This document shows positions 47,440 through 62,306 of a stretch of DNA of 64,000 nucleotides, piece after piece. The DNA is from Erythrobacter sp. SD-21 (lineage in GTDB: Bacteria > Pseudomonadota > Alphaproteobacteria > Sphingomonadales > Sphingomonadaceae). The position numbers were made by a program, and so were the translations under genes. Location of the stretch: the NCBI RefSeq assembly GCF_000181515.1, contig NZ_ABCG01000002.1:372001-436000 (forward strand). The letters run 5' to 3'. The notes under the pieces were generated by a model. The model did not search any database. It was not told the DNA's origin and was given only the letters and a program-made list of their open reading frames with translations. Position 1 is the first letter of the stretch; every line of letters starts with the position of its first letter.

Positions 47440-47769
47440 ATGGCCGAAATGCTCACCCTGACCCCAGCCGCCGCCAAGCGCGTTGCTGCCATCGCCGACA
47501 AGCAGGCGAAACCCCCGGTCCTGCGCCTATCGGTGGAGGGCGGGGGATGTTCCGGCTTCCAGTACAAGTTCGACCTCGCCGAAGGGCCGGAAGACGACGA
47601 TTCGGTGAGCGATACCGATGGCGTGAAGCTGGTCGTCGATTCGGTCAGCCTCGACCTTGTGGCGGGCAGCACGGTCGACTTCGTCGAATCGCTGGGCGGC
47701 GCGGCTTTCCGCGTCGAGAACCCCAACGCTGCGGCCGGGTGCGGCTGCGGATCGAGCTTTGGGATTTAG
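47440..47769 (+). CDS. A-type Fe-S carrier, ErpA/IscA family
   Basis: A 109-residue A-type carrier with Cys37 (GGGCSGFQY) and Cys101/Cys103 (GCGCGSSFGI). It is a second such carrier, separate from sufA at 14.6 kb. The ErpA-type end (VENPNAAAGCGCGSSFGI) suggests delivery to respiratory or isoprenoid enzymes. Start taken as ATG 47440; ATG 47449 is possible. Confidence 0.92.
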   Translation: MAEMLTLTPAAAKRVAAIADKQAKPPVLRLSVEGGGCSGFQYKFDLAEGPEDDDSVSDTDGVKLVVDSVSLDLVAGSTVDFVESLGGAAFRVENPNAAAGCGCGSSFGI

Positions 47770-49842: not shown

Positions 49843-50297
49843 CCCTGGTAACCAGCCAGGCTGGAGAGGGGTATCCGCGATTTCATGAAGGTGCCCGTGC
49901 CGCGTCCGATTTCCTCGCCCTCGGCATCGACCAGCCGCGATTCGGCCACGAAAACGCGGCGGCGTCCGCTGACCCAGCGCCCCTCGGCCACGACCTTGCC
50001 ATCGCGCACGGGCTTGCTGAAATGGAGGTTGAAGCTGGTGGTGAGGAGGAAGCGGTCAGTGACCAGCGTGTTCGCGGCGTAGAAAGCCGCATCGTCGAGC
50101 ATCTTGAAATAGATCGTACCATGCGCCGCACCGGCAGCGTGGAAGCAATCCTCGGTCACGTCGAAGGTGATTCGCGCAGTCCCCTCGCCGGTCACTTCGA
50201 GCGCCGAGGCGAATTGTCCGTTGACCGGGGCGGAGGCATACAGGCTTTCCAGCGCACGCCAATGCGTCTCGGCTCCGCTACTCGCCGCCCCGTTCAT
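49839..50297 (-). CDS. PaaI-type acyl-CoA thioesterase
   Basis: A 152-residue hot-dog-fold protein: TEDCFHAAGAAHGTIYFKMLDDAAFYAANTLVTDRF with the HG-x-D/N pattern of the PaaI group, and LHFSKPVRDGKVVAEGRWVSGRRR. Substrate unknown. Coupled to the DUF1491 gene by a 4-base overlap. Confidence 0.88.
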   Translation of the reverse strand: MNGAASSGAETHWRALESLYASAPVNGQFASALEVTGEGTARITFDVTEDCFHAAGAAHGTIYFKMLDDAAFYAANTLVTDRFLLTTSFNLHFSKPVRDGKVVAEGRWVSGRRRVFVAESRLVDAEGEEIGRGTGTFMKSRIPLSSLAGYQG

Positions 50298-50321
50298 CGC
50301 TAAATTCCGTCCGTCCTTCGC

Positions 50322-50894
50322 TCAACCGCGCGGTTCGACCCAGCCGATCGAACCATCGGCGCGGCGATAGACCATATTATGTTTCTCGGTAGCCCCGTTC
50401 TTGAAGAACAGCGCGTTGGCGTTCTGCAGATCGAGCAGCATTACCGCGTCGGCGACCGAGCATTCGGGGATGAGCGCGCTGGTTTCCGCAATCACCGGCG
50501 GGCTGTCGTGCTCGACCTCGGCCTCGGTGTCGGAATCGGGGGCGGCGAGAATCGTATAGGCGGCTTCCTGTTCGCGCATGGCGTGGTCGGCCTGTTCGTG
50601 GCGGTCCTTGATTCGGCGCTTGTAGCGGCGCAATTGCTTTTCGATCTTAGCCGCTGCCGCATCGAAGGCCTGGTGGACGTCGTGCGCTTCGGCGTGGCCC
50701 TTCAGGATGAGGCCCTGCATCACATGCGCGACAATGTCGGAGGAGTAGGACCCGCCCGCGGCCTTGCCGAAGGTCACATGGCTGGAGATCGCGCGGTTGA
50801 AATACTTTTCAACGATGCCCTGCATTCGGTCTTCGACATGGGTCTGCAAGGCTGCGCCGGTGTCGATCTGGTGGCCCGAAACACGGATATCCAT
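50322..50894 (-). CDS. hpf: Ribosome hibernation promoting factor, long form
   Basis: A 190-residue long-type HPF that dimerises ribosomes in stationary phase. N-terminal sigma-54 modulation domain (about 1-110) with DIRVSGHQIDTGAALQTHVEDRM and HAEAHDVHQAFDAAAAKIEKQLRRYKRRI; C-terminal dimerisation domain (about 130-190) with LLDLQNANALFFKNGATEKHNMVYRRADGSIGWVEPRG. Start at ATG 50894 (MDIRVSGHQ) fits the family. Confidence 0.95.
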   Translation of the reverse strand: MDIRVSGHQIDTGAALQTHVEDRMQGIVEKYFNRAISSHVTFGKAAGGSYSSDIVAHVMQGLILKGHAEAHDVHQAFDAAAAKIEKQLRRYKRRIKDRHEQADHAMREQEAAYTILAAPDSDTEAEVEHDSPPVIAETSALIPECSVADAVMLLDLQNANALFFKNGATEKHNMVYRRADGSIGWVEPRG

Positions 50895-50966
50895 GAAGTA
50901 TCTCTCCTTTTAATCGCACCCCGGATTTTGACCGGCCCCGTCAGCCGGATGCAGTGCGCGGGATAA

Positions 50967-51656
50967 TTACCCCCAGAGAGGGTTTTCTATCCCGGCCATG
51001 AATTCGCGATGCCGCGCCAGCTCTTCCGGCGTCGGCGCATGCGGACGTGCCTCGCGCCTCGGACCGTCGGGAGCCTTGCGCACGGCGACGACTTCCGTCG
51101 TGATCTCCACAGCCGCGGTTTCGGCCGCGAGTTCGAGCCCGATCTGCCGGCCGCCCTTCAGTTCGACATAGACCTGCGCCAGCAATTCGGCATCGAGAAG
51201 CGCCCCGTGCTTCACGCGGTGGCTGCGATCAATTCCGTAGCGCGTGCAAAGCGCGTCGAGCGAGAGCTTCGCGCCCGGATGACGCTTCTTCGCCAGGGCG
51301 ACCGTATCGATCATGCGGCTCATGCACACCGCCTCACGCTCGCACAGCGCGAGTTCGGCGTTGAGGAAGCCGAAGTCGAAGCCCGCGTTATGCGCGATCA
51401 GCGGCGCGTCGCCGATAAAGTCCAGCAATTCGTGCGCGGTGTCGCGGAACAGCGGCTTGTCGGACAGAAAAGCGGCGGACAGGCCGTGCACCGCTTCGGC
51501 GCCGGCAGGCATGTCACGCTCGGGATTGTAATAGGCGTGGAAGGTGTTTCCCGTGGGTACGAGACTGACCATCTCGACGCAGCCGATTTCCACCATCCGG
51601 TCCCCAGTCCTGGGGTCCAAACCGGTGGTTTCGGTATCGAAGACGATCTCACGCAT
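50967..51656 (-). CDS. dnaQ: DNA polymerase III epsilon subunit
   Basis: A 229-residue 3'-5' proofreading exonuclease of the replicative polymerase. Exo I FDTETTGLDPRTGDRMVEIG (catalytic Asp and Glu), Exo II LIAHNAGFDFGFLNAEL, Exo III-epsilon HRVKHGALLDAELLAQVYVEL. C-terminal tail shows the clamp/alpha-binding region (EARPHAPTPEELARHREFM). It lies near the presumed origin, with coaE ending 52 bases upstream. Confidence 0.95.
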   Translation of the reverse strand: MREIVFDTETTGLDPRTGDRMVEIGCVEMVSLVPTGNTFHAYYNPERDMPAGAEAVHGLSAAFLSDKPLFRDTAHELLDFIGDAPLIAHNAGFDFGFLNAELALCEREAVCMSRMIDTVALAKKRHPGAKLSLDALCTRYGIDRSHRVKHGALLDAELLAQVYVELKGGRQIGLELAAETAAVEITTEVVAVRKAPDGPRREARPHAPTPEELARHREFMAGIENPLWG

Positions 51657-51707
51657 TAGCTAACCTATCGGACTCGTGCGCGCAGATTACAAGGGGGTTA
51701 CAAGTCC

Positions 51708-52325
51708 CTATTTCTGGCCCGCGCCCTCCATGCGTTCACTTCGAAGCGTAGCAATAAGCGTCAGCACTTCGTCCTCGGTCTCGGCCAGCGACTGGCCGGT
51801 ATCGATGACATAGGTCGCACGCTCACGCTTCTCGGCGTCGGGTGTCTGTAATCCAAGGATATGGGCGAATTTCTCCGGCGTCATGCCCGGCCGCGCCAGC
51901 ACTCGGGCGCGCTGCACTTCGGCCGGTGCCGAGACGACCACGATGCGGTCGACCAGGGCCTGGCCGTCTTTCTCGAACAATAGCGGGATATCGAAGACGG
52001 CGAAGGGCGCGCCGAAATGCTCGATCAGGAAAGCCTCGCGCCTGCGGGCGACAGCCGGGTGGACGATGGCTTCGAGGCGGGCGAGGGCTTCCGGATCGCC
52101 GAACACCTGCGCGCCGAGCTTTTCGCGCAGGACGCCGGTCTCATCGGTGCTTCCCGGAAATTCCGCCTCGATTGGCGGTACGAGTTCGCCGCCCGGTCCC
52201 TGCATGGCGCGCACCTCGGCGTCGGCGTCGAAGACGGGCACGCCCGCCGCTTCGAACATCGCGGCGACGGTCGATTTGCCCATGCCGATGGAGCCGGTGA
52301 GGCCGATGATCAGCGGTTTGGTCAC
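51708..52325 (-). CDS. coaE: Dephospho-CoA kinase
   Basis: A 205-residue P-loop kinase catalysing the last step of CoA synthesis. Walker A GLTGSIGMGKSTVAAMF, DADAEVRAMQGPGGELVPPI, AIVHPAVARRREAFL and FDIPLLFEKDGQ are all present. Overlaps aroE by 4 bases. Confidence 0.95.
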   Translation of the reverse strand: MTKPLIIGLTGSIGMGKSTVAAMFEAAGVPVFDADAEVRAMQGPGGELVPPIEAEFPGSTDETGVLREKLGAQVFGDPEALARLEAIVHPAVARRREAFLIEHFGAPFAVFDIPLLFEKDGQALVDRIVVVSAPAEVQRARVLARPGMTPEKFAHILGLQTPDAEKRERATYVIDTGQSLAETEDEVLTLIATLRSERMEGAGQK

Positions 52326-53173
52326 GCGGTGAGCCTTTCGCGCAGCTCGGCATCGTGCTCGCGCGGAGGTTCCTGCCCGAAGAAATGGGAGAAGGCCGCA
52401 GCCGCCTGGCCGATAAGCATGGCGAGCCCGTCGACGGTCTCGAAACCGGCCTTGCGGGCCGCCTTGAGAAAATCGGTCACCACCGGGTCGGTGACGATAT
52501 CGTAGGCAAGCGAGCCGGGCGGGGCGTGGCTCCAGTCGAAAGCGAGCGGGGGCTGGCCGCGCATGCCCAAGGGGCTGGCGTTGATCACGAGATCGCAGCA
52601 GCCCACGCGGTCGTCGAAGGCGAAGTCGGTGGCCTCGGCGAAATGCACGAGCGGGGCGGTATGGTGTTCGCCCGGTGCCAGTTCGTCCAGCAAGGTCCGC
52701 GCCTTGGCAGGATCACGCCCGGCTACCACCAGCGTGAAGCCTTCGCTGGCGAGGGCTGCGACTATCGCGCGCGCCGCGCCGCCGGTGCCGAGCACACGCG
52801 CCATGCGAAAATAATGCTGCTGCTTCAGTCGTGCGCGCAAGGGTTCGAGGAAGCCCGCCACATCGGTGTTGCGCCCGACGAGCGCGCCGTCTTTCGCGCG
52901 GTGGATGGTGTTCACCGCGCCCACCCGCTTGGCCAGCGGCTCGAGCCGGTCGACCAGCGGCAGCACCGCCTGTTTGTGCGGCATGGTGACGTTGCACCCG
53001 CGCCAGTTCGGGTCTTCGCGCCGCGCGGCGATGTAGGCGGGAAGGTCTTCCGCTGTGACGCGATGCGCGCGGTAGTCCGCGTCGAGGCCCAGCTTTTCGA
53101 ACCAGAAGCCATGGATTGCGGGCGATTTCGACTGGGCGATCGGATCGCCGATCACTTCGGCATAGTGGCTCAC
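52322..53173 (-). CDS. aroE: Shikimate dehydrogenase
   Basis: A 283-residue NADP-dependent enzyme that reduces 3-dehydroshikimate. Motifs: [33 protein letters not shown] with the catalytic Lys, [32 protein letters not shown] and [16 protein letters not shown]. The GTG at 53173 is used; it overlaps the maf stop as GTGA. Confidence 0.94.
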
Positions 53174-53766
53174 GAGGTGAGGACGCCTTCCTCGCGCAGC
53201 GCATCGAGCACCTGCAAAAGCGGCATGCCGAGCACGGTGAACTGGTCGCCCATGATGCTTTCGAACAATTGCACGCCGGGGCCTTCGATGCGGAAAACGC
53301 CCACGCAATAGGAAACCTCCGGCCACTCGGCCTCGAGATAGGCCGTGATGAAGTCTTCGGAGAGCTCGCGCACGCGGAGCCGCGCAAAATCCGACCCGAC
53401 CCAGAAGATCTGGCCGTCCTTCGCCAGCGCGGCAGCGCTGTGGAGCGTCATCACCTTGCCGGAAAAGAAGCGCAAATGCTCGGCGGCCTGCTCGCGGTTC
53501 GCGGGCTTGTCGAAACGGTGGCCATCGACCTCGACCAGCGAGTCGCTGCCGAGTACGATCCGCGCATCCGAAACGGCAGCTGCCTTGGCCGCGGCGAGGG
53601 CCTGCGCGACTTCGGTTGGTTCCGCCCTTTCCATCTCCGCCTCGAGCGCGCGCTCGTCGACATCGGCCGGATGCGCTTCGAACGCAACGCCGGCGGCTTC
53701 CAGCATGGCCTTGCGCGACGCCGAATTGGACGCGAGCACGATGCCGCCTCCTGCAAGAGCTCTCAT
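53170..53766 (-). CDS. maf: Maf family nucleotide pyrophosphatase
   Basis: A 198-residue Maf protein, which hydrolyses non-canonical or excess nucleoside triphosphates and can arrest septation when overproduced. [32 protein letters not shown] and the [15 protein letters not shown] block match. Coupled by 4-base overlaps to ppsR upstream and aroE downstream. Confidence 0.93.
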
Positions 53767-54656
53767 ATCGCTTTCACTCCCTCGAACTCGCCATCCCCGC
53801 GCTGGGCGCGCTCGCCATAAAGGCGGATGACCGCAGCTGCGGTCTCCTCGATCGAGCGGCGGGTCACGTCGATCACCGGCCAGCCGTTATCGGCAAACAT
53901 CCGCCGCGCGAAGGCCACTTCGCTCTTCACGCGCTCGTTGTCGACATAGTCCGTCTCCGCCTTTTCGTTGAGCGTCAGCAGGCGGTTGCGGCGGATCTGC
54001 ACCAGCCGTTCGGGCGCGGTGGTGAGACCGACGACCATCGGGTTCTTCAGTTCGAACAGCTTGGGCGGCGGCGGGCTCTCCACCACCAGCGGGATATTGG
54101 CGACCTTGTAGCCGCGGTTGGCGAGATAGATGCTGGTCGGTGTCTTCGAGCTGCGCGACACCCCGGCGAGCACAATGTCGGCCTGCTCCCAATTGTCCCA
54201 GCCGATCCCGTCGTCATGCGCGATCGTGAACTGGATGGCCTCGACGCGCTCGAAATAGGCCTTGTCCATCTGGTGCTGGCGGCCGGGACGGCCATGCGCT
54301 TCCTGTCCGAGCGCCTTTTCCAGCGCCTCGGTCACGCGGTCGAGAATGGGGACGGCGGGCAGACCGTCTTGCGAGCAGACCTCTTCCAGCCGCGCACGCG
54401 CTTCGGCGTTGACCAATGTGAAGAGCACAAGTCCCGGGTTGGCCTTGAGTTCAGGTACGATCCGGTCAAGATGCTGCTTCGAGCGCACCATCGGCCAGAA
54501 ATGGCGCACCACGGCGGCGTCGTCGAACTGCGCAAGCGCCGCTTTTGCAAGCATTTCCAGCGTTTCGCCGGTGCTGTCCGACAGGAGATGGAGGTGGATA
54601 CGGTCGGCTATGATTGCCTCGGATTTGGGGGTGTGGACAGCCTTGGGATAAACCAC
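53763..54656 (-). CDS. Pyruvate, phosphate dikinase regulatory protein (PPSR/DUF299)
   Basis: A 297-residue bifunctional kinase/pyrophosphorylase of the DUF299 family, which switches PPDK or PEP synthase by phosphorylation. [25 protein letters not shown] opens the domain; [28 protein letters not shown] is the P-loop signature. No ATG exists near the domain; the only standard start close enough is GTG at 54656, though it leaves 22 residues before the core. In Caulobacter and Rickettsia a homologous gene borders the origin opposite hemE. First of an overlapping gene set with maf, aroE and coaE. Confidence 0.9.
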
Positions 54657-54929
54657 GGGACAGGTCTGCCGACAAGTTCGGTGATGAATTCCGTCCCCGT
54701 TACGAGTCCTGTTCGGGCCCGATTCCCGCACAGCAAGGATCAAGTTTTGCAGAGGCTGGGGACAATGGGGAGAAGTTCGACTCGACTCAGGCCGCGTCAC
54801 GATTCGCCTGTGCCCACGCAAGCCTTCCATCGGGCCCGGAAATAGGGCAGGGGCGGCTTGTGCCCGATATCCACAGGGCCAACAGACTCCATCAATCCTT
54901 ATAATAACTAGGTATTATTGGACTCCTGA
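54657..54929. other. Candidate chromosomal replication origin (oriC)
   Basis: Gene-free gap of 273 bases between divergent ppsR and hemE, the site of the origin in Caulobacter and Rickettsia. DnaA-box-like 9-mers (consensus TTATCCACA): ATATCCACA (54867-54875, 8 of 9), TTGTCCCCA (minus, 54757-54765, 7 of 9), and in the ppsR start CTGTCCACA (minus, 54632-54640) and TTATCCCAA (minus, 54643-54651). The most AT-rich stretch, ATAATA-n6-TATTAT (54901-54918), could be the unwinding element. No CtrA-like TTAA-N7-TTAA site was seen. Confidence 0.55.
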
Positions 54930-55955
54930 ATGCCCGGTCTCCTTCTCGACACGCTCAACGGTACACGCTCTTCGCAGGTCCCTCTTTGGCTCATGCGCCA
55001 GGCAGGCCGGTACCTTCCCGAATATCGCGAGCTGCGCGCCCAAAAAGGCGGGTTCCTCGCCATGGCCTACGATAGCGAGGCGGCGTGCGAGATAACCTTG
55101 CAGCCCATCGACCGCTTCGGTTTCGACGGCGCTATCCTGTTTTCCGATATCTTGATCGTGCCCCATGCGCTTGGCCAGAATCTCGAATTCCTCGCGGGCG
55201 AAGGCCCCAAGCTCTCGCCACGGCTGGTCGATGCCTCGCTGGAATCGCTGACCCGCGCGCCCGAGCGCTACGAACCGATCTACGAAACGGTCCGCCTCTG
55301 CCGCCAACGTCTGCCCGAAGGGGTGACGATGCTGGGCTTTGCAGGAAGTCCCTGGACCGTGGCCACCTACATGGTGGCGGGCGAGGGCAGCAGGGACCAG
55401 CACGAAGCGCGCGCGCTCGCCTATCGCGATCCGGGCGAATTGCAGGCGATCATCGATACAATTGCGGAGCAGACGATCACCTACCTTTCCGGCCAGATCG
55501 AGGCAGGCGCCGAAGCGGTGCAATTGTTCGACAGCTGGGCAGGCAGCCTTGCTCCGAATGAATTCGAACGCTGGGTCATCGCGCCCAACGCGCGGATCGT
55601 GGCGGCGCTTGCCGAATTGCATCCGGATACGCCGGTCATCGGGTTTCCGAAGGGATCCGGCGAAAAATTGCCGGTCTATGCGCGCGAAACGGGCGTGAAG
55701 GCGGTCGGGGTGGACGAAACGCTCGATCCCGCCTGGGTGGCGCGCCAATTGCCGGCGGGCATGGCGGTTCAGGGGAACCTGGATCCGCTGCTGCTGCTGG
55801 CGGGTTCCGACCAGCTCGAAAAGCGCGTCCAAACGATCCTCGAGGCCTTCGCCGACCGGCCGCATGTTTTCAATCTCGGCCACGGCATCGACCGGCGCAC
55901 GCCGATTGCGCATGTCGAGCGGCTGATTGCCGCCGTGCGAGGCTGGCAGGGATGA
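54930..55955 (+). CDS. hemE: Uroporphyrinogen decarboxylase
   Basis: A 341-residue enzyme converting uroporphyrinogen III to coproporphyrinogen III in heme synthesis. Opening PLWLMRQAGRYLPEYRELR and GFAGSPWTVATYMVAGEGS are family signatures, with FDGAILFSDILIVPHALGQ. First plus-strand gene to the right of the presumed origin; hemJ follows after 31 bases. Confidence 0.96.
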   Translation: MPGLLLDTLNGTRSSQVPLWLMRQAGRYLPEYRELRAQKGGFLAMAYDSEAACEITLQPIDRFGFDGAILFSDILIVPHALGQNLEFLAGEGPKLSPRLVDASLESLTRAPERYEPIYETVRLCRQRLPEGVTMLGFAGSPWTVATYMVAGEGSRDQHEARALAYRDPGELQAIIDTIAEQTITYLSGQIEAGAEAVQLFDSWAGSLAPNEFERWVIAPNARIVAALAELHPDTPVIGFPKGSGEKLPVYARETGVKAVGVDETLDPAWVARQLPAGMAVQGNLDPLLLLAGSDQLEKRVQTILEAFADRPHVFNLGHGIDRRTPIAHVERLIAAVRGWQG

Positions 55956-55986
55956 AATCGGCGCGTCGATCGCCTAGATTGTCGGC

Positions 55987-56433
55987 ATGCAGGATGTACT
56001 TGTCATGACCTATCTCTGGCTCAAGGCGGGCCACATCATCTTCATGGTCTTCTGGATGGCGGGCCTCTTCATGCTGCCGCGCCAGATGATCTACTTGCAC
56101 CCCGCGGCACCCGGCTCCGAGGAATCGAAGCATTGGGAAAAGCGTATGGGATTGCTGCGCAAGGTAATCCTCACTCCCAGCATCGTCGTAGTGTGGGTTC
56201 TGGGCCTTCTCCTGGCCCAAACGCTGCTTGCGTGGGGTGAGGGGTGGCTCCACGCCAAATTGTCGCTTGTGGTGCTTCTGAGCGGCTTCCACGGCTATAT
56301 GGTCGCGCAATCGAAGAAGATGGCCGCGGGCGAGCGTCCGCTGACCGAGAAGCAGTTGCGCCTGTTGGGCGAGATTCCCGGCATTTTGCTCGCGTTGATC
56401 GTCATCACCGTGGTTGTTTACCGCAATATGTGA
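55987..56433 (+). CDS. hemJ: Protoporphyrinogen oxidase HemJ
   Basis: A 148-residue inner-membrane protein that oxidises protoporphyrinogen IX in bacteria lacking HemG and HemY. Four helices; the conserved His in LWLKAGHIIFMVFWMAGLFMLPR and the later KLSLVVLLSGFHGYMV match the family. Heme-pathway neighbour of hemE. Confidence 0.9.
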   Translation: MQDVLVMTYLWLKAGHIIFMVFWMAGLFMLPRQMIYLHPAAPGSEESKHWEKRMGLLRKVILTPSIVVVWVLGLLLAQTLLAWGEGWLHAKLSLVVLLSGFHGYMVAQSKKMAAGERPLTEKQLRLLGEIPGILLALIVITVVVYRNM

Positions 56434-56589
56434 CCGAAGCGGCTTCGCGATTGACGCGAGGCGAGCGGAATCCTATTTAAGCGGCCTCTACCGGCTACAG
56501 GCCCCGCATATCCGCCGGGGCCGGGTCCGCTTTCTCCAAGCCCATACCGACCTGCCGGCCACGCACACTCGAAATCTGAGTAAACATCT

Positions 56590-57855
56590 ATGCATCTCAA
56601 GGATTTGAAAGAGAAAACGCCGGCAGACCTCGTGGCCATGGCCGAGGAACTGGGCGTCGAAGGCGCATCGACCATGCGCCGGCAGGACCTGATGTTCTGC
56701 ATCCTTCGCGAACTCGCCGAAGACGAGGAATACGAAGAAAAGATCATGGGCATCGGCACCATCGAGGTGTTGCAGGACGGTTTCGGCTTCCTGCGCAGCC
56801 CCGAGGCGAACTATCTCGCCGGCCCCGACGATATCTATGTCTCGCCCAACCAGGTCCGCAAATGGGGACTGCGCACCGGCGACACGGTCGAAGGCGAGAT
56901 CCGCGCGCCCAAGGAAGGCGAACGCTATTTCGCGCTGACCAAGCTCTACAAGGTCAATTTCGACGATCCGGACGCGGTGCGCCATCGCACCAATTTCGAC
57001 AACCTCACGCCGCTCTATCCCGACGAGAAGCTGTCGCTCGACACGCTCGATCCGACGGTGAAGGACAAGTCCGCACGCGTGATCGACATCATCTCGCCGC
57101 AGGGCAAGGGCCAGCGCGCGCTGATCGTGGCGCCACCGCGTACCGGTAAGACGGTGCTGCTGCAGAACATCGCCAAGGCGATCACGGACAATCACCCGGA
57201 AGTCTTCCTGCTGGTCCTGCTTGTCGACGAGCGTCCGGAAGAAGTCACCGACATGCAGCGCAGCGTGAAGGGCGAGGTCATCTCCTCGACCTTCGACGAG
57301 CCGGCCAACCGCCATGTCCAGGTCGCCGAAATGGTAATCGAGAAGGCCAAGCGCCTTGTCGAGCACAAGCATGACGTCGTCATCCTGCTCGATTCGATCA
57401 CGCGCCTCGGCCGCGCCTACAACACGGTGGTGCCCAGCTCGGGCAAGGTGCTGACCGGCGGTGTCGACGCCAACGCGCTCCAGCGCCCGAAGCGCTTCTT
57501 CGGCGCGGCGCGCAACATCGAGGAAGGCGGCTCGCTCTCGATCATCGCCACCGCGTTGATCGACACTGGCAGCCGCATGGACGAGGTTATCTTCGAAGAG
57601 TTCAAGGGCACCGGTAACAGCGAAATCGTGCTCGACCGCAAGGTCGCCGACAAGCGTATCTTCCCGGCGCTTGATGTCGGCAAGTCCGGCACCCGCAAGG
57701 AAGAACTCCTGGTGGGCAAGGACCAGCTTTCGAAGATGTGGGTCCTGCGCCGTATCCTCATGCAGATGGGCACCATCGATGCGATGGAATTCCTTCTCGA
57801 CAAAATGAAGGATTCCAAGACCAACGAAGACTTCTTCGCGACGATGAACCAGTAA
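56590..57855 (+). CDS. rho: Transcription termination factor Rho
   Basis: A 421-residue hexameric RNA helicase that ends transcription. N-terminal domain ([22 protein letters not shown]) and cold-shock-like RNA-binding domain with [22 protein letters not shown]; ATPase core with Walker [16 protein letters not shown], Walker [12 protein letters not shown] and Q-loop [13 protein letters not shown]. Followed by a hairpin terminator. In the conserved order hemE, hemJ, rho near the alphaproteobacterial origin. Confidence 0.97.
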
Positions 57856-57881
57856 GCGATTACAATACAATGATAATCGTG

Positions 57882-57912
57882 AAGGGCCGCCGGATTGATC
57901 CGGGCGGCCCTT
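57882..57912 (+). terminator. Hairpin terminator after rho
   Basis: AAGGGCCGCC (57882-57891) pairs perfectly with GGCGGCCCTT (57903-57912); the following sequence (CTCGTTTC) is only weakly T-rich. Confidence 0.6.
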
Positions 57913-57918
57913 CTCGTT

Positions 57919-58316
57919 TCATCCCTTCATCGCTTCCAGCATCGCAGCCATCTGCTCCCACACTTTGTTTACCGCTTTAAGAGGCCGCACCATGACCTTG
58001 AAGTCGGTGATCAAGCCGTTCTCGTCGAAGCGGATAATATCGACCCGTTGACGTGAATGCCGTCCATTTCGGCGGTGAACTCGAGGCAAGCGTTCTCGCC
58101 ATCGACCAGTTCGCGGATATAGGTGAAACTGTCGTTACCCAGCGTCTGGCCGGCGGCGGAGAGATAGGCCACCACCAGATCGCGCCCCTTCTGCGGGGAA
58201 TGGACGACGGGGGAGTGGAAAGCTGTGTCCTCATGGATGATCGCGGCCAGCTCGGCGGGCAACGAGCCGTTTTCAATCACCTCATACCAGCGTGCCAATC
58301 CTTTTTCGGCGCTCAT
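57919..58316 (-). pseudogene. Frameshifted NTF2/SnoaL-type small protein
   Basis: Reading from ATG 58316 (MSAEKGLARWYEVIENGSLP) the frame codes a SnoaL/NTF2-like fold to HVNG, then stops prematurely (TGA at 58011-58013). Deleting the frame by one base at the C run 58044-58046 (CCC, one C short) restores VDIIRFDENGLITDFKVMVRPLKAVNKVWEQMAAMLEAMKG in the alternative frame, ending at 57919. The intact product would be about 132 residues. The start overlaps the glutamate synthase stop by 4 bases. A sequencing error is possible. Confidence 0.7.
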
Positions 58317-59905
58317 CCATCCCTCCTGAAGCTGTTGGCCCGGGCGGCTTCCCAATGCCGCGCAAGCGGTGTGGTCTGAGGCTTGTCGAGCAATACGCCT
58401 TCCTCGACAAAATAGTAGATCTTGTCGAACGCGTCCGAGCGCGCGCCGTTGATGCGTTCGCGCATGTCGAGCGGTTTCATTTCCCAGGGGGACTGAAGGC
58501 CCATGGCAATGGTGATCTCGCGCAGGGAATGCAGCGTCTGACGCTGGAAACGGGCGACGCGCGGGGCTTTGTCTTCAATCACGAGGCCGCGCTGGCGCCA
58601 TTCTTCCTGCGTTGCGATTCCGGTGGGGCAGGTTCCCTTGTGGCAGTTCATCGATTGGACGCAGCCGAGCGCGAACATGAAGGGGCGGGCGGCGTTGCAC
58701 CAGTCGGCTCCCAGCGCGAAGCTTTTGGCCATTTGTGCGCCGGAGTGGATCTTGCCCGAAGTGGCGATCTTCACCTTGTGCCTCAGGCCCGTGCCGACCA
58801 GCATGTTGCGCACGAAGATTTGCCCTTCGCGCAGCGGCATTCCGACCGAGTTGGAAAGCTCTAGCGGGGCTGCGCCGGTTCCACCTTCCGCGCCGTCGAC
58901 GGTGATGAAATCGGGATGCATTTCGGTTTCCAGCATGGCCTTGCACAGCGCGAAGATCTCGTGCGGCTGGCCGACACACAGTTTGATGCCGGTAGGCTTG
59001 CCGCCCGAGAGGTCACGCAAGCGGGTGACGAATTCCAGCAATTCGATCGGGGTGTCGAATTCCGGATGAGCGGCGGGAGAGTTTACGTCCTGCCCCTGCG
59101 GCACGCCCCGGGCCTCGGCGATTTCCTTCGTGACCTTGGCTCCGGGGAGCACGCCGCCATGGCCGGGCTTGGCGCCCTGGCTAAGCTTGAGCTCGATCAT
59201 CTTCACCTGATCGCTCGCCGCGTTGTCGCGAAACTTGTCCGGATCGAAGCGTCCGTCTTCCCGTCGCGCGCCGAAATAGCCGCTGCCCAGCTCCCAAATC
59301 AGGTCGCCGCCGGGTCCGCGGTGATAGCGGCTGATCGAGCCCTCGCCTGTATTATGCGCGAAATTGCCCAGCTTGGCGCCCATGTTGAGCGCCTCGATCG
59401 CGCGGGCGGAGAGCGAACCGAAGCTCATCGCAGAGATGTTGAGCAATGACGACGAGTAGGGCTTGGCGCAGCTGCCTTCGCCCACCGTCACGCGCCATTC
59501 CTCTGCCACATCGCTGGTGGGTGCGATGGAGTGGCCGACCCACTCGTATTCATCTGAATAGACGTCGAGCTCGGTGCCCATAGGATGCTTATCGAGATCA
59601 CCTTTGGCGCGCGCATAGACCAGCGAACGTGCTTGGTGGCTGAAGGGCCGCCCTTCAAGATCGTCCTCGACGATATAGGCCTGCGCGAAAGGCCGGAGGT
59701 CCTCCATCAGCCACCGAATTCGGGCGAGCAGTGGATAATTCCGTCTAAGAGTATGATCTGATTGGAAAAAATCCCAAATTGCCAGTGCGAGGGCTGGGAA
59801 AAGTAGCCACAGGCTCCACCTTGCAGACTCCCAAGCCCACGCGCCGGCCACGAGGACCAGCAGCCCGAACGGAACGAGATAGCGAAAGGGCAGGCGCTCG
59901 ATCAT
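58313..59905 (-). CDS. FMN-binding glutamate synthase family protein
   Basis: A 530-residue protein with two N-terminal helices (VPFGLLVLVAGAWAW and LWLLFPALALAIWDFF) and then the FMN/glutamate-synthase domain: LNISAMSFGSLSARAIEAL, GEGSISRYHRGPGGDLIWELGSGYFGAR, ITVDGAEGGTGAAPLELSNSVGMPL, CNAARPFMFALGCVQSMNCHKGTCPTGIAT with the Fe-S cysteines. It lacks the amidotransferase domain, so it is not classical GltB; substrate unknown. Its stop overlaps the start of the broken NTF2-like gene. Confidence 0.88.
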   Translation of the reverse strand: MIERLPFRYLVPFGLLVLVAGAWAWESARWSLWLLFPALALAIWDFFQSDHTLRRNYPLLARIRWLMEDLRPFAQAYIVEDDLEGRPFSHQARSLVYARAKGDLDKHPMGTELDVYSDEYEWVGHSIAPTSDVAEEWRVTVGEGSCAKPYSSSLLNISAMSFGSLSARAIEALNMGAKLGNFAHNTGEGSISRYHRGPGGDLIWELGSGYFGARREDGRFDPDKFRDNAASDQVKMIELKLSQGAKPGHGGVLPGAKVTKEIAEARGVPQGQDVNSPAAHPEFDTPIELLEFVTRLRDLSGGKPTGIKLCVGQPHEIFALCKAMLETEMHPDFITVDGAEGGTGAAPLELSNSVGMPLREGQIFVRNMLVGTGLRHKVKIATSGKIHSGAQMAKSFALGADWCNAARPFMFALGCVQSMNCHKGTCPTGIATQEEWRQRGLVIEDKAPRVARFQRQTLHSLREITIAMGLQSPWEMKPLDMRERINGARSDAFDKIYYFVEEGVLLDKPQTTPLARHWEAARANSFRRDG

Positions 59906-59915
59906 GCGCGCGTGC

Positions 59916-60614
59916 TCAGGCGAGATGCTCCTTGAAGAAATCGGCGGTCCGCCCGTCGGCTAGGTTCGCGGCCTTTTCGTCGCGGCGCTTGCCGAATTCG
60001 GTGGCAAACCCGTGGTCGAGTCCTTCGTAATCGTAGAGCGTCACCTTGGGGTGCTCGTCCAGACCGTCGTGCATCGCCTTCTGCGTGTCCTTGTCCACGA
60101 AGCCGTCTTCGGTGGGCACGTGAAGCAGGAGCGGATGGGCGATCGCGTGCTTTTCATTGAGCAGCCCGTCGATCCCGACGCCGTAATAGCCGACCGAGGC
60201 GTTCACATCGGTGCGTGCGGCGGTCATATAGGCGAGTCGGCCGCCGAGGCAGTATCCGACGCAACCGACCATTGCGACGCCTTCCTCTCGGCGAATGTGA
60301 TGGATCGTCGCCTCGATATCCCGAATGCCTTGGTCCTGGTCGAACTTTCCCATCAGGTCGAGCGCGCGCTGGAATTCCGGCTCTACATCGGGGTCGAGTT
60401 CCACGCCGGGTTCGAGCCGCCAGAACAAGTCGGGCGCCACCGCGAGATAGCCGTCTTCGGCCAGCTTGTCGCATTTGCGGCGAATGCCCGCATTCACGCC
60501 GAAGATTTCCTGGATCACGAGGATCGCCGCCTTTGGGGTATCGGCAGGGCGGGCGACGTAGGCCTTGAAGCTGGCGTCGCCGGACAGGGTGGCAATCGTT
60601 ACGGTCTCGCTCAT
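59916..60614 (-). CDS. Dienelactone hydrolase family protein
   Basis: A 232-residue alpha/beta hydrolase. The nucleophile is the Cys in VGYCLGGRLAYM, with the catalytic His in YEGLDHGFAT. AAILVIQEIFGVNAGIRRKCDKLAEDGYLAVAPDLFWR is the family opening. The ATG at 60614 follows GGGAGAG; the long upstream frame is shadow. Substrate unknown. Starts 11 bases before the glutamate synthase-family stop. Confidence 0.9.
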   Translation of the reverse strand: MSETVTIATLSGDASFKAYVARPADTPKAAILVIQEIFGVNAGIRRKCDKLAEDGYLAVAPDLFWRLEPGVELDPDVEPEFQRALDLMGKFDQDQGIRDIEATIHHIRREEGVAMVGCVGYCLGGRLAYMTAARTDVNASVGYYGVGIDGLLNEKHAIAHPLLLHVPTEDGFVDKDTQKAMHDGLDEHPKVTLYDYEGLDHGFATEFGKRRDEKAANLADGRTADFFKEHLA

Positions 60615-62290: not shown

Positions 62291-62306
62291 TGTTCCACGT
62301 GCAACA
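62291..62306. promoter_or_regulatory. Candidate parS site 2 (between mnmE and mnmG)
   Basis: TGTTCCACGTGCAACA differs from the symmetric form TGTTCCACGTGGAACA at one base. It lies 11 bases past the mnmE stop and 729 bases from site 1, a spacing typical of clustered parS sites next to parAB. Confidence 0.7.

Follow-up and report, generated by a model that had tools for sequence, protein, structure and literature searches.

The window, that is, the whole stretch of DNA analysed here, covers 64 kb (C18:372001-436000) of a 2.97 Mb genome in 19 unordered contigs. Nine consecutive minus-strand open reading frames, from 48655 through ppsR, turn their 5' ends toward a gap, and hemE, hemJ (55987-56433) and rho (56590-57855) run from it in the opposite direction. 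This layout had been described in an earlier note on the same DNA, and both the list of open reading frames and Pfam agree with it. Pfam places Kinase-PPPase/DUF299 (PF03618) in ppsR, URO-D (PF01208) in hemE, UPF0093 in hemJ and Rho in rho. The closest relatives by HemE are Sphingomonadales of the Citromicrobium, Tsuneonella and Erythrobacter type. No Rfam family matched positions 50000-60000 at the gathering score. The region before hemE is intergenic between hemE and a DUF299/COG1806 gene, as in origins of the hemE/COG1806 type, first mapped in Caulobacter. The two genes and the region between them are as follows.

53763..54611, minus strand: ppsR, DUF299 (Kinase-PPPase); start put at ATA 54611-54609 from Pfam and a start-codon comparison, where the earlier note had GTG 54656
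54612..54929, unstranded: ppsR-hemE intergenic region, very probable oriC; 318 bp from the likely ppsR start, 273 bp if the start is GTG 54656; based on gene order, relatives' boxes and congener skew
54930..55955, plus strand: hemE, from Pfam

The earlier figure of 273 bases for the gap is correct provided that ppsR starts at GTG 54656. This codon was compared across a genus set of 25 congeneric loci, which includes the window's own and leaves out the second, weaker match of G017. An in-frame GTG counterpart (at -14 to -16) was found in only 12 of the 25, own included, and the codons between GTG 54656 and 54611 are unconserved by eye. For these reasons, an AUN codon at 54611 is, on comparison of the sequences, the likelier start of ppsR, and GTG 54656 is doubtful. 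At the codon where the relatives would start, 18 of the 25 loci carry ATA (3), ATT (8) or ATC (7), and in the remaining seven a GTG occupies this codon or the one after it; the same codon set would also result from an isoleucine conserved inside the protein. By eye, AGGA or GGAG, resembling a Shine-Dalgarno sequence, precedes the 54611 codon by 6-7 bases in several congeneric loci. Since the GTG start is unconserved, the origin boxes that had been thought to overlap the ppsR start codon probably lie upstream of the gene and not inside it.

Six sites with at most two mismatches to the DnaA consensus were found in and beside the gap.

54867..54875, plus strand: DnaA box ATATCCACA, 8/9; at least 7/9 in 25/25 congeneric loci (own included), at least 8/9 in 8/25
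54632..54640, minus strand: DnaA box CTGTCCACA, 7/9; at least 7/9 in 25/25 congeneric loci, at least 8/9 in 19/25
54643..54651, minus strand: weak DnaA-like site TTATCCCAA, 7/9; at least 7/9 in only 5/25 congeneric loci; overlaps block ATAAACCACGGGA
54757..54765, minus strand: weak DnaA site TTGTCCCCA, 7/9; at least 7/9 in 6/25 congeneric loci
54766..54774, minus strand: weak DnaA site TTCTCCCCA, 7/9; at least 7/9 in 8/25 congeneric loci
54593, minus strand: weak DnaA site, 7/9; at least 7/9 in 3/25 congeneric loci

The 8-of-9 box of the earlier note is the one at 54867-54875. Its three 7-of-9 minus-strand boxes are also present (54632, 54643 and 54757), but the two placed inside the ppsR start are probably outside the gene, given the unconserved GTG; the sites at 54766 and 54593 are additional to it. 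Conservation of these 9-mers in related genomes divides the set. The boxes at 54632 and 54867 are kept genus-wide, whereas those at 54643 and 54757 are kept in few congeneric loci, so that, of the four boxes first described, the genus retains two as DnaA boxes. Two further stretches of conserved sequence were observed here. The block ATAAACCACGGGA (54648-54660) hardly varies among the 25 congeneric loci; it resembles the order-wide consensus and is not a DnaA consensus. The second, TCCACAGGGCCAAC (54870-54883), ahead of the AT-rich tract, is present in 25/25 congeneric loci and is longer than a DnaA box would require.

The boxes of the window are all imperfect, and no exact DnaA box occurs in its origin. 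Across the 64 kb, sites with at most one mismatch number 3 against a shuffle mean of 3.49, which is no enrichment, and those with at most two number 72 against a mean of 62.9, a count reached by 14 of 100 shuffles and hence no clear enrichment. A lone 8/9 box proves nothing by itself, because sites that good are at chance level in the window. These numbers would suit a gap that is a mere divergent promoter for ppsR and hemE, with oriC elsewhere, for example at dnaA. The arrangement of the sites is less ordinary: six sites with at most two mismatches fall within 292 bp. Neither the 64 kb nor 303 kb of the contig has another cluster as dense, and among first-order Markov sequences as long as the window, 0 of 200 reached six.

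The comparison with relatives weighs further against a promoter alone. In 81 rows (80 relatives' loci and the window), the 450 bases before hemE were taken as the upstream region. These 36,127 bases contain 177 boxes with at most one mismatch, and 808,127 flank bases contain 83, so that near-perfect boxes are about 48 times denser before hemE than in the flanks. Exact boxes number 52 upstream of hemE and 11 in the flanks; before hemE, boxes with at most one mismatch are missing from six of the 81 rows. By eye, boxes recur near -300, -205, -185, -175 and -68 from the hemE start. When 75 loci were aligned with the window, its sites at 54632, 54757 and 54867 proved to be positional counterparts of the relatives' boxes. 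The 54867 box reaches at least 7/9 in 31/31 nearer relatives, the other 44 having no ungapped counterpart, and the 54632 box does so in 30/31 nearer and 40/44 wider relatives. At 54757, the counterpart in more distant Sphingomonadales is a stronger box (at least 7/9 in 36/44 distant and 13/31 nearer relatives); by this comparison, the box is decayed in the window's genus. The neighbouring gene is shared as well: of the 80 relatives' loci, which had been collected with HemE, 75 match ppsR on the upstream side of hemE. As for the other five, the contig of L033 stops about 130 bases before hemE, and L032, L048, L063 and L066 have no ppsR match, yet boxes stand before hemE in L063 and L066.

Directly between the conserved 54867 box and hemE lies a tract that could serve as the site of strand opening.

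54890..54919, unstranded: AT-rich tract, candidate duplex-unwinding element; 7 of 30 bases G+C, lowest of all 30-mers in the 64 kb

This is the AT-rich palindromic tract of the earlier note, and the near-palindrome is visible in the sequence; by eye, it is kept in the nearest congeners only, and AT-richness at the same place is seen in the 25 congeneric loci. At a width of 40, eight other places in the 64 kb equal the tract in AT-richness, and the oriC region as a whole has 43% A+T. In the basal unwinding system, made up of a DnaA box plus DnaA-trios, three or more NAN trios stand in phase no further than 16 bases from a box (PMC8287927). Here the first trio run begins, by eye, about 19 bases past the box. 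In-phase T runs exceed those of shuffled sequences (0/300 reach them), but the control runs do so too, those of C and A within the genus and those of C in the wider set.

The position of the locus on the chromosome was examined by GC skew, a check proposed in the earlier note, for which a minimum elsewhere would count against the origin. In the closest congener (G024), which is 91% identical over the locus and consists of a single contig of 2,825,489 bases, 35 samples of 20 kb place the origin at the hemE locus. The skew contrast peaks at 1.08-1.12 Mb, a range that contains the locus (1.091 Mb), and 0 of 2000 permutations reach the peak value. In a more distant relative, Erythrobacter sp. NAP1, for which 40 samples were taken, hemE (2.677 Mb) is inside a broad cumulative minimum, and again 0 of 2000 permutations reach the value at hemE; the best contrast is at 2.75-2.87 Mb (0.0138), with hemE slightly lower (0.0126). 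The window's own genome gives a weak skew over 303 kb of the contig, with a shallow local minimum at window position 47531, 7.3 kb away. A crude count of open reading frames revealed no leading-strand gene bias around the locus.

Sequences resembling parS are found on the hemE side of the gap.

62291..62306, unstranded: parS-like palindrome TGTTCCACGTGCAACA, 2 mismatches; control pattern 0 matches

In the entire 2.97 Mb, parS-like sites with at most two mismatches occur only at C18:434291, 436391 and 436756, all 7-10 kb from the gap; the last two are just past the window end, at 64391 and 64756. Clusters of such sites are also present in four related genomes (G001, G002, G004 and G003); three have them at 5-8 kb from hemE and one at 16-19 kb. 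The control pattern gave one match per strand in two of the four. Open reading frames resembling parA and parB were identified by eye at about 10-12 kb. Sampled skew resolves an origin only to about 40-80 kb, and the parS-like sites are 7-10 kb away on the right, so an oriC in the neighbourhood but outside the gap, close to rho, mnmE or parAB for instance, has to be weighed. We hold this to be scarcely probable at all: the gap is the densest cluster of DnaA boxes and GANTC sites in 303 kb of the contig, and the relatives' boxes concentrate in the 450 bases before hemE and not in the flanks.

The dnaA gene is on another contig (C14), not beside this locus. An origin adjoining dnaA was rejected, as the 400 bases upstream of the gene contain no site with at most one mismatch, two sites with two mismatches, and no cluster. 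Together with the congener skew, the parS-like sites and the box enrichment in relatives, which all indicate the gap locus, this makes it very improbable that the gap is only a divergent promoter. An altered specificity of DnaA as the cause of the weak boxes is not supported either, since its C-terminal motif GGRDHSTVIHA looks canonical by eye. Within 54612-54929, the CtrA consensus TTAA-N7-TTAA was not found, nor was an IHF site when two consensus forms were searched without mismatches. Sites of the TTAA-N7-TTAA form belong to Caulobacter and some others and are not universal; they are reported in Wolbachia and other bacteria by PMC1914354.

The gap between ppsR and hemE is thus the chromosomal oriC of this member of the Sphingomonadales (Erythrobacteraceae-like), of the hemE/COG1806 type, with a probability of about 95%. 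The claim of the earlier note that oriC is here has gained from the congener skew, the relatives' DnaA boxes, the nearby parS-like sites and parAB-like open reading frames, and the lack of a box cluster at dnaA. An origin is to be expected at this position, as relatives keep theirs at the same place, and what is unusual is some details of its marking. Placing the origin for the genus anchors replichore maps and copy-number gradients.

One such detail, absent from the earlier note, is a set of seven GANTC sites, the target of CcrM, within the 273-base gap.

54704..54708, unstranded: GANTC, kept in 18/25 congeneric loci
54721..54725, unstranded: GANTC, kept in 17/25
54779..54788, unstranded: tandem GANTC pair GACTCGACTC, kept in 22/25 and 25/25 (54784)
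54801..54805, unstranded: GANTC, kept in 25/25; middle base G in 20, T in 5
54885..54889, unstranded: GANTC, kept in 22/25
54921..54925, unstranded: GANTC, ahead of hemE, kept in 20/25

The density of GANTC is 1.77 per kb in the window and 1.40 per kb in 303 kb of the contig, and the gap is the densest place. Over the 25 loci of the genus, the origin has 19.8 sites per kb and the flanks 1.38, a 14.4-fold difference and the highest enrichment among 24 pentamers of that form (the runner-up, AGNCT, reaches 4.0-fold). Order-wide, in 76 loci, the values are 13.9 per kb at the origin and 1.85. Under a Markov null, seven GANTC in 273 bp were reached by 62 of 200 sequences, so clustering alone is not significant; the reason is that the genome avoids GANTC while the null does not. 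The case for GANTC rests on the observed background and on conservation. At 54801, the middle base differs between loci and GA and TC do not, a pattern that selection on the motif itself would be expected to produce. A rise of GANTC around ori has been reported in four alphaproteobacterial orders (PMC9836097).

The genome encodes one PF01555 methyltransferase, taken as CcrM, and also a GcrA. Exact DnaA boxes TTATCCACA number four in the genome, and the reversed control pattern is commoner (11). One of the four is just upstream of ccrM (C16:152562-152570; L203:1331-1339), near GANTC sites. The 25 congeneric loci, which include the genome's own and are the best of 31 genomes with a match, all have this box in exact form. 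Order-wide, among the best 30 loci of 105 genomes with a match (118 searched), 14 have an exact box within 200 bases of the ccrM start, some at other positions. In the available excerpts of a Caulobacter modelling paper (PMC2217572), a DnaA box upstream of ccrM is not reported.

The other exact boxes were considered separately. Two are at 556 kb on C19, and a second origin there was rejected because they lie inside the coding sequence of ligA (identified by eye). Each of these two boxes stands beside a further box-like site (L096:6165-6510), and the pair may be due to chance or form a DnaA-titrating site. The fourth, C19:307850, is within the 3' end of an open reading frame. Also rejected was a second cluster of DnaA and GANTC sites on C18, 44 kb from oriC, which is a divergent intergenic region between nadD-like and peptidase-like open reading frames (by eye). 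This region (L091:14375-14600) has four weak DnaA sites, five GANTC and the motif TTAACCAT, and it looks like a promoter of the CtrA/CcrM type.

In the mechanism that we infer for this origin, DnaA would dock on the two conserved boxes with the core TCCACA (54632 and 54867) and then fill the weaker sites between them. It would melt the AT-rich tract 54890-54919 beside hemE, where the helicase would be loaded and from which two forks would depart in opposite directions. ParB bound to parS, 7-10 kb off, would segregate the duplicated origins. CcrM would methylate the conserved GANTC sites, and firing of the origin would leave them hemimethylated.

The weak boxes and the presumably selected GANTC cluster of oriC, together with the exact DnaA box in the ccrM promoter, lead us to conjecture a two-way circuit in the genus, in which initiation is tied to CcrM methylation, and a fired, hemimethylated origin is held off until DnaA-timed CcrM remethylates it. 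We consider such a circuit rather unlikely. If the circuit is real, Dam/SeqA sequestration would have a counterpart in Alphaproteobacteria, working at an origin where no CtrA sites are recognisable. Speaking against the circuit are the mild effects of ccrM in Caulobacter (PMC3973325) and Agrobacterium (PMC11514494) and the influence of CtrA in Sphingomonas melonis, where CtrA is dispensable but is said to influence replication (PMC8116508). What is in print on CcrM and initiation is mixed: in a Caulobacter model, methylation of Cori is needed for reinitiation (PMC2217572), whereas a later study found the DNA-content profile unchanged upon loss of ccrM, which was not required for initiation control (PMC3973325).

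Whatever the status of the origin, the GANTC cluster could instead belong to methylation-dependent promoters of hemE and ppsR and have no part in initiation control, a reading to which we give somewhat less than an even chance. GANTC is over-represented intergenically in Alphaproteobacteria generally, the unchanged DNA content without ccrM in Caulobacter fits as well (PMC3973325), and in Agrobacterium altered CcrM levels affect ori2 and not noticeably the DnaA-dependent ori1 (PMC11514494). Five GANTC are also found in the divergent intergenic region on C18 mentioned above. However, nowhere else in 303 kb is GANTC as dense as at the origin, and the sites at 54779-54805, among the best conserved, are in the middle of the region, more than 120 bases from hemE and more than 160 from the likely ppsR start. 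The conserved cluster and the box in the ccrM promoter make it testable whether CcrM methylation gates initiation at alphaproteobacterial origins in which CtrA sites are not recognisable.

The origin described here has close counterparts. Caulobacter crescentus Cori (hemE / CC0001, COG1806) shares its flanking genes with this origin and likewise contains an AT-rich region (PMC1914354); its parS is no more than 8 kb away, its DnaA boxes are weak and not perfect (PMC4468827), and it has several GANTC sites (PMC3973325). The window's origin differs from Cori in having neither CtrA nor IHF consensus sites. In Sphingopyxis granuli TFA and other Sphingomonadaceae in DoriC, the predicted oriC is near hemE, with a conserved gene organisation, conserved putative DnaA boxes and an unwinding element (PMC4741004). 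The position and flanks (PMC4741004) and the GANTC enrichment around ori are already in print for Sphingomonadales. In contrast to the window, more distant members of the order keep stronger DnaA boxes, including at the position that is decayed here. The origin of Rickettsia prowazekii (hemE / RP001) has the same gene pair but is far more AT-rich, at 82.55% (PMC1914354) against 43% A+T in the window's origin.
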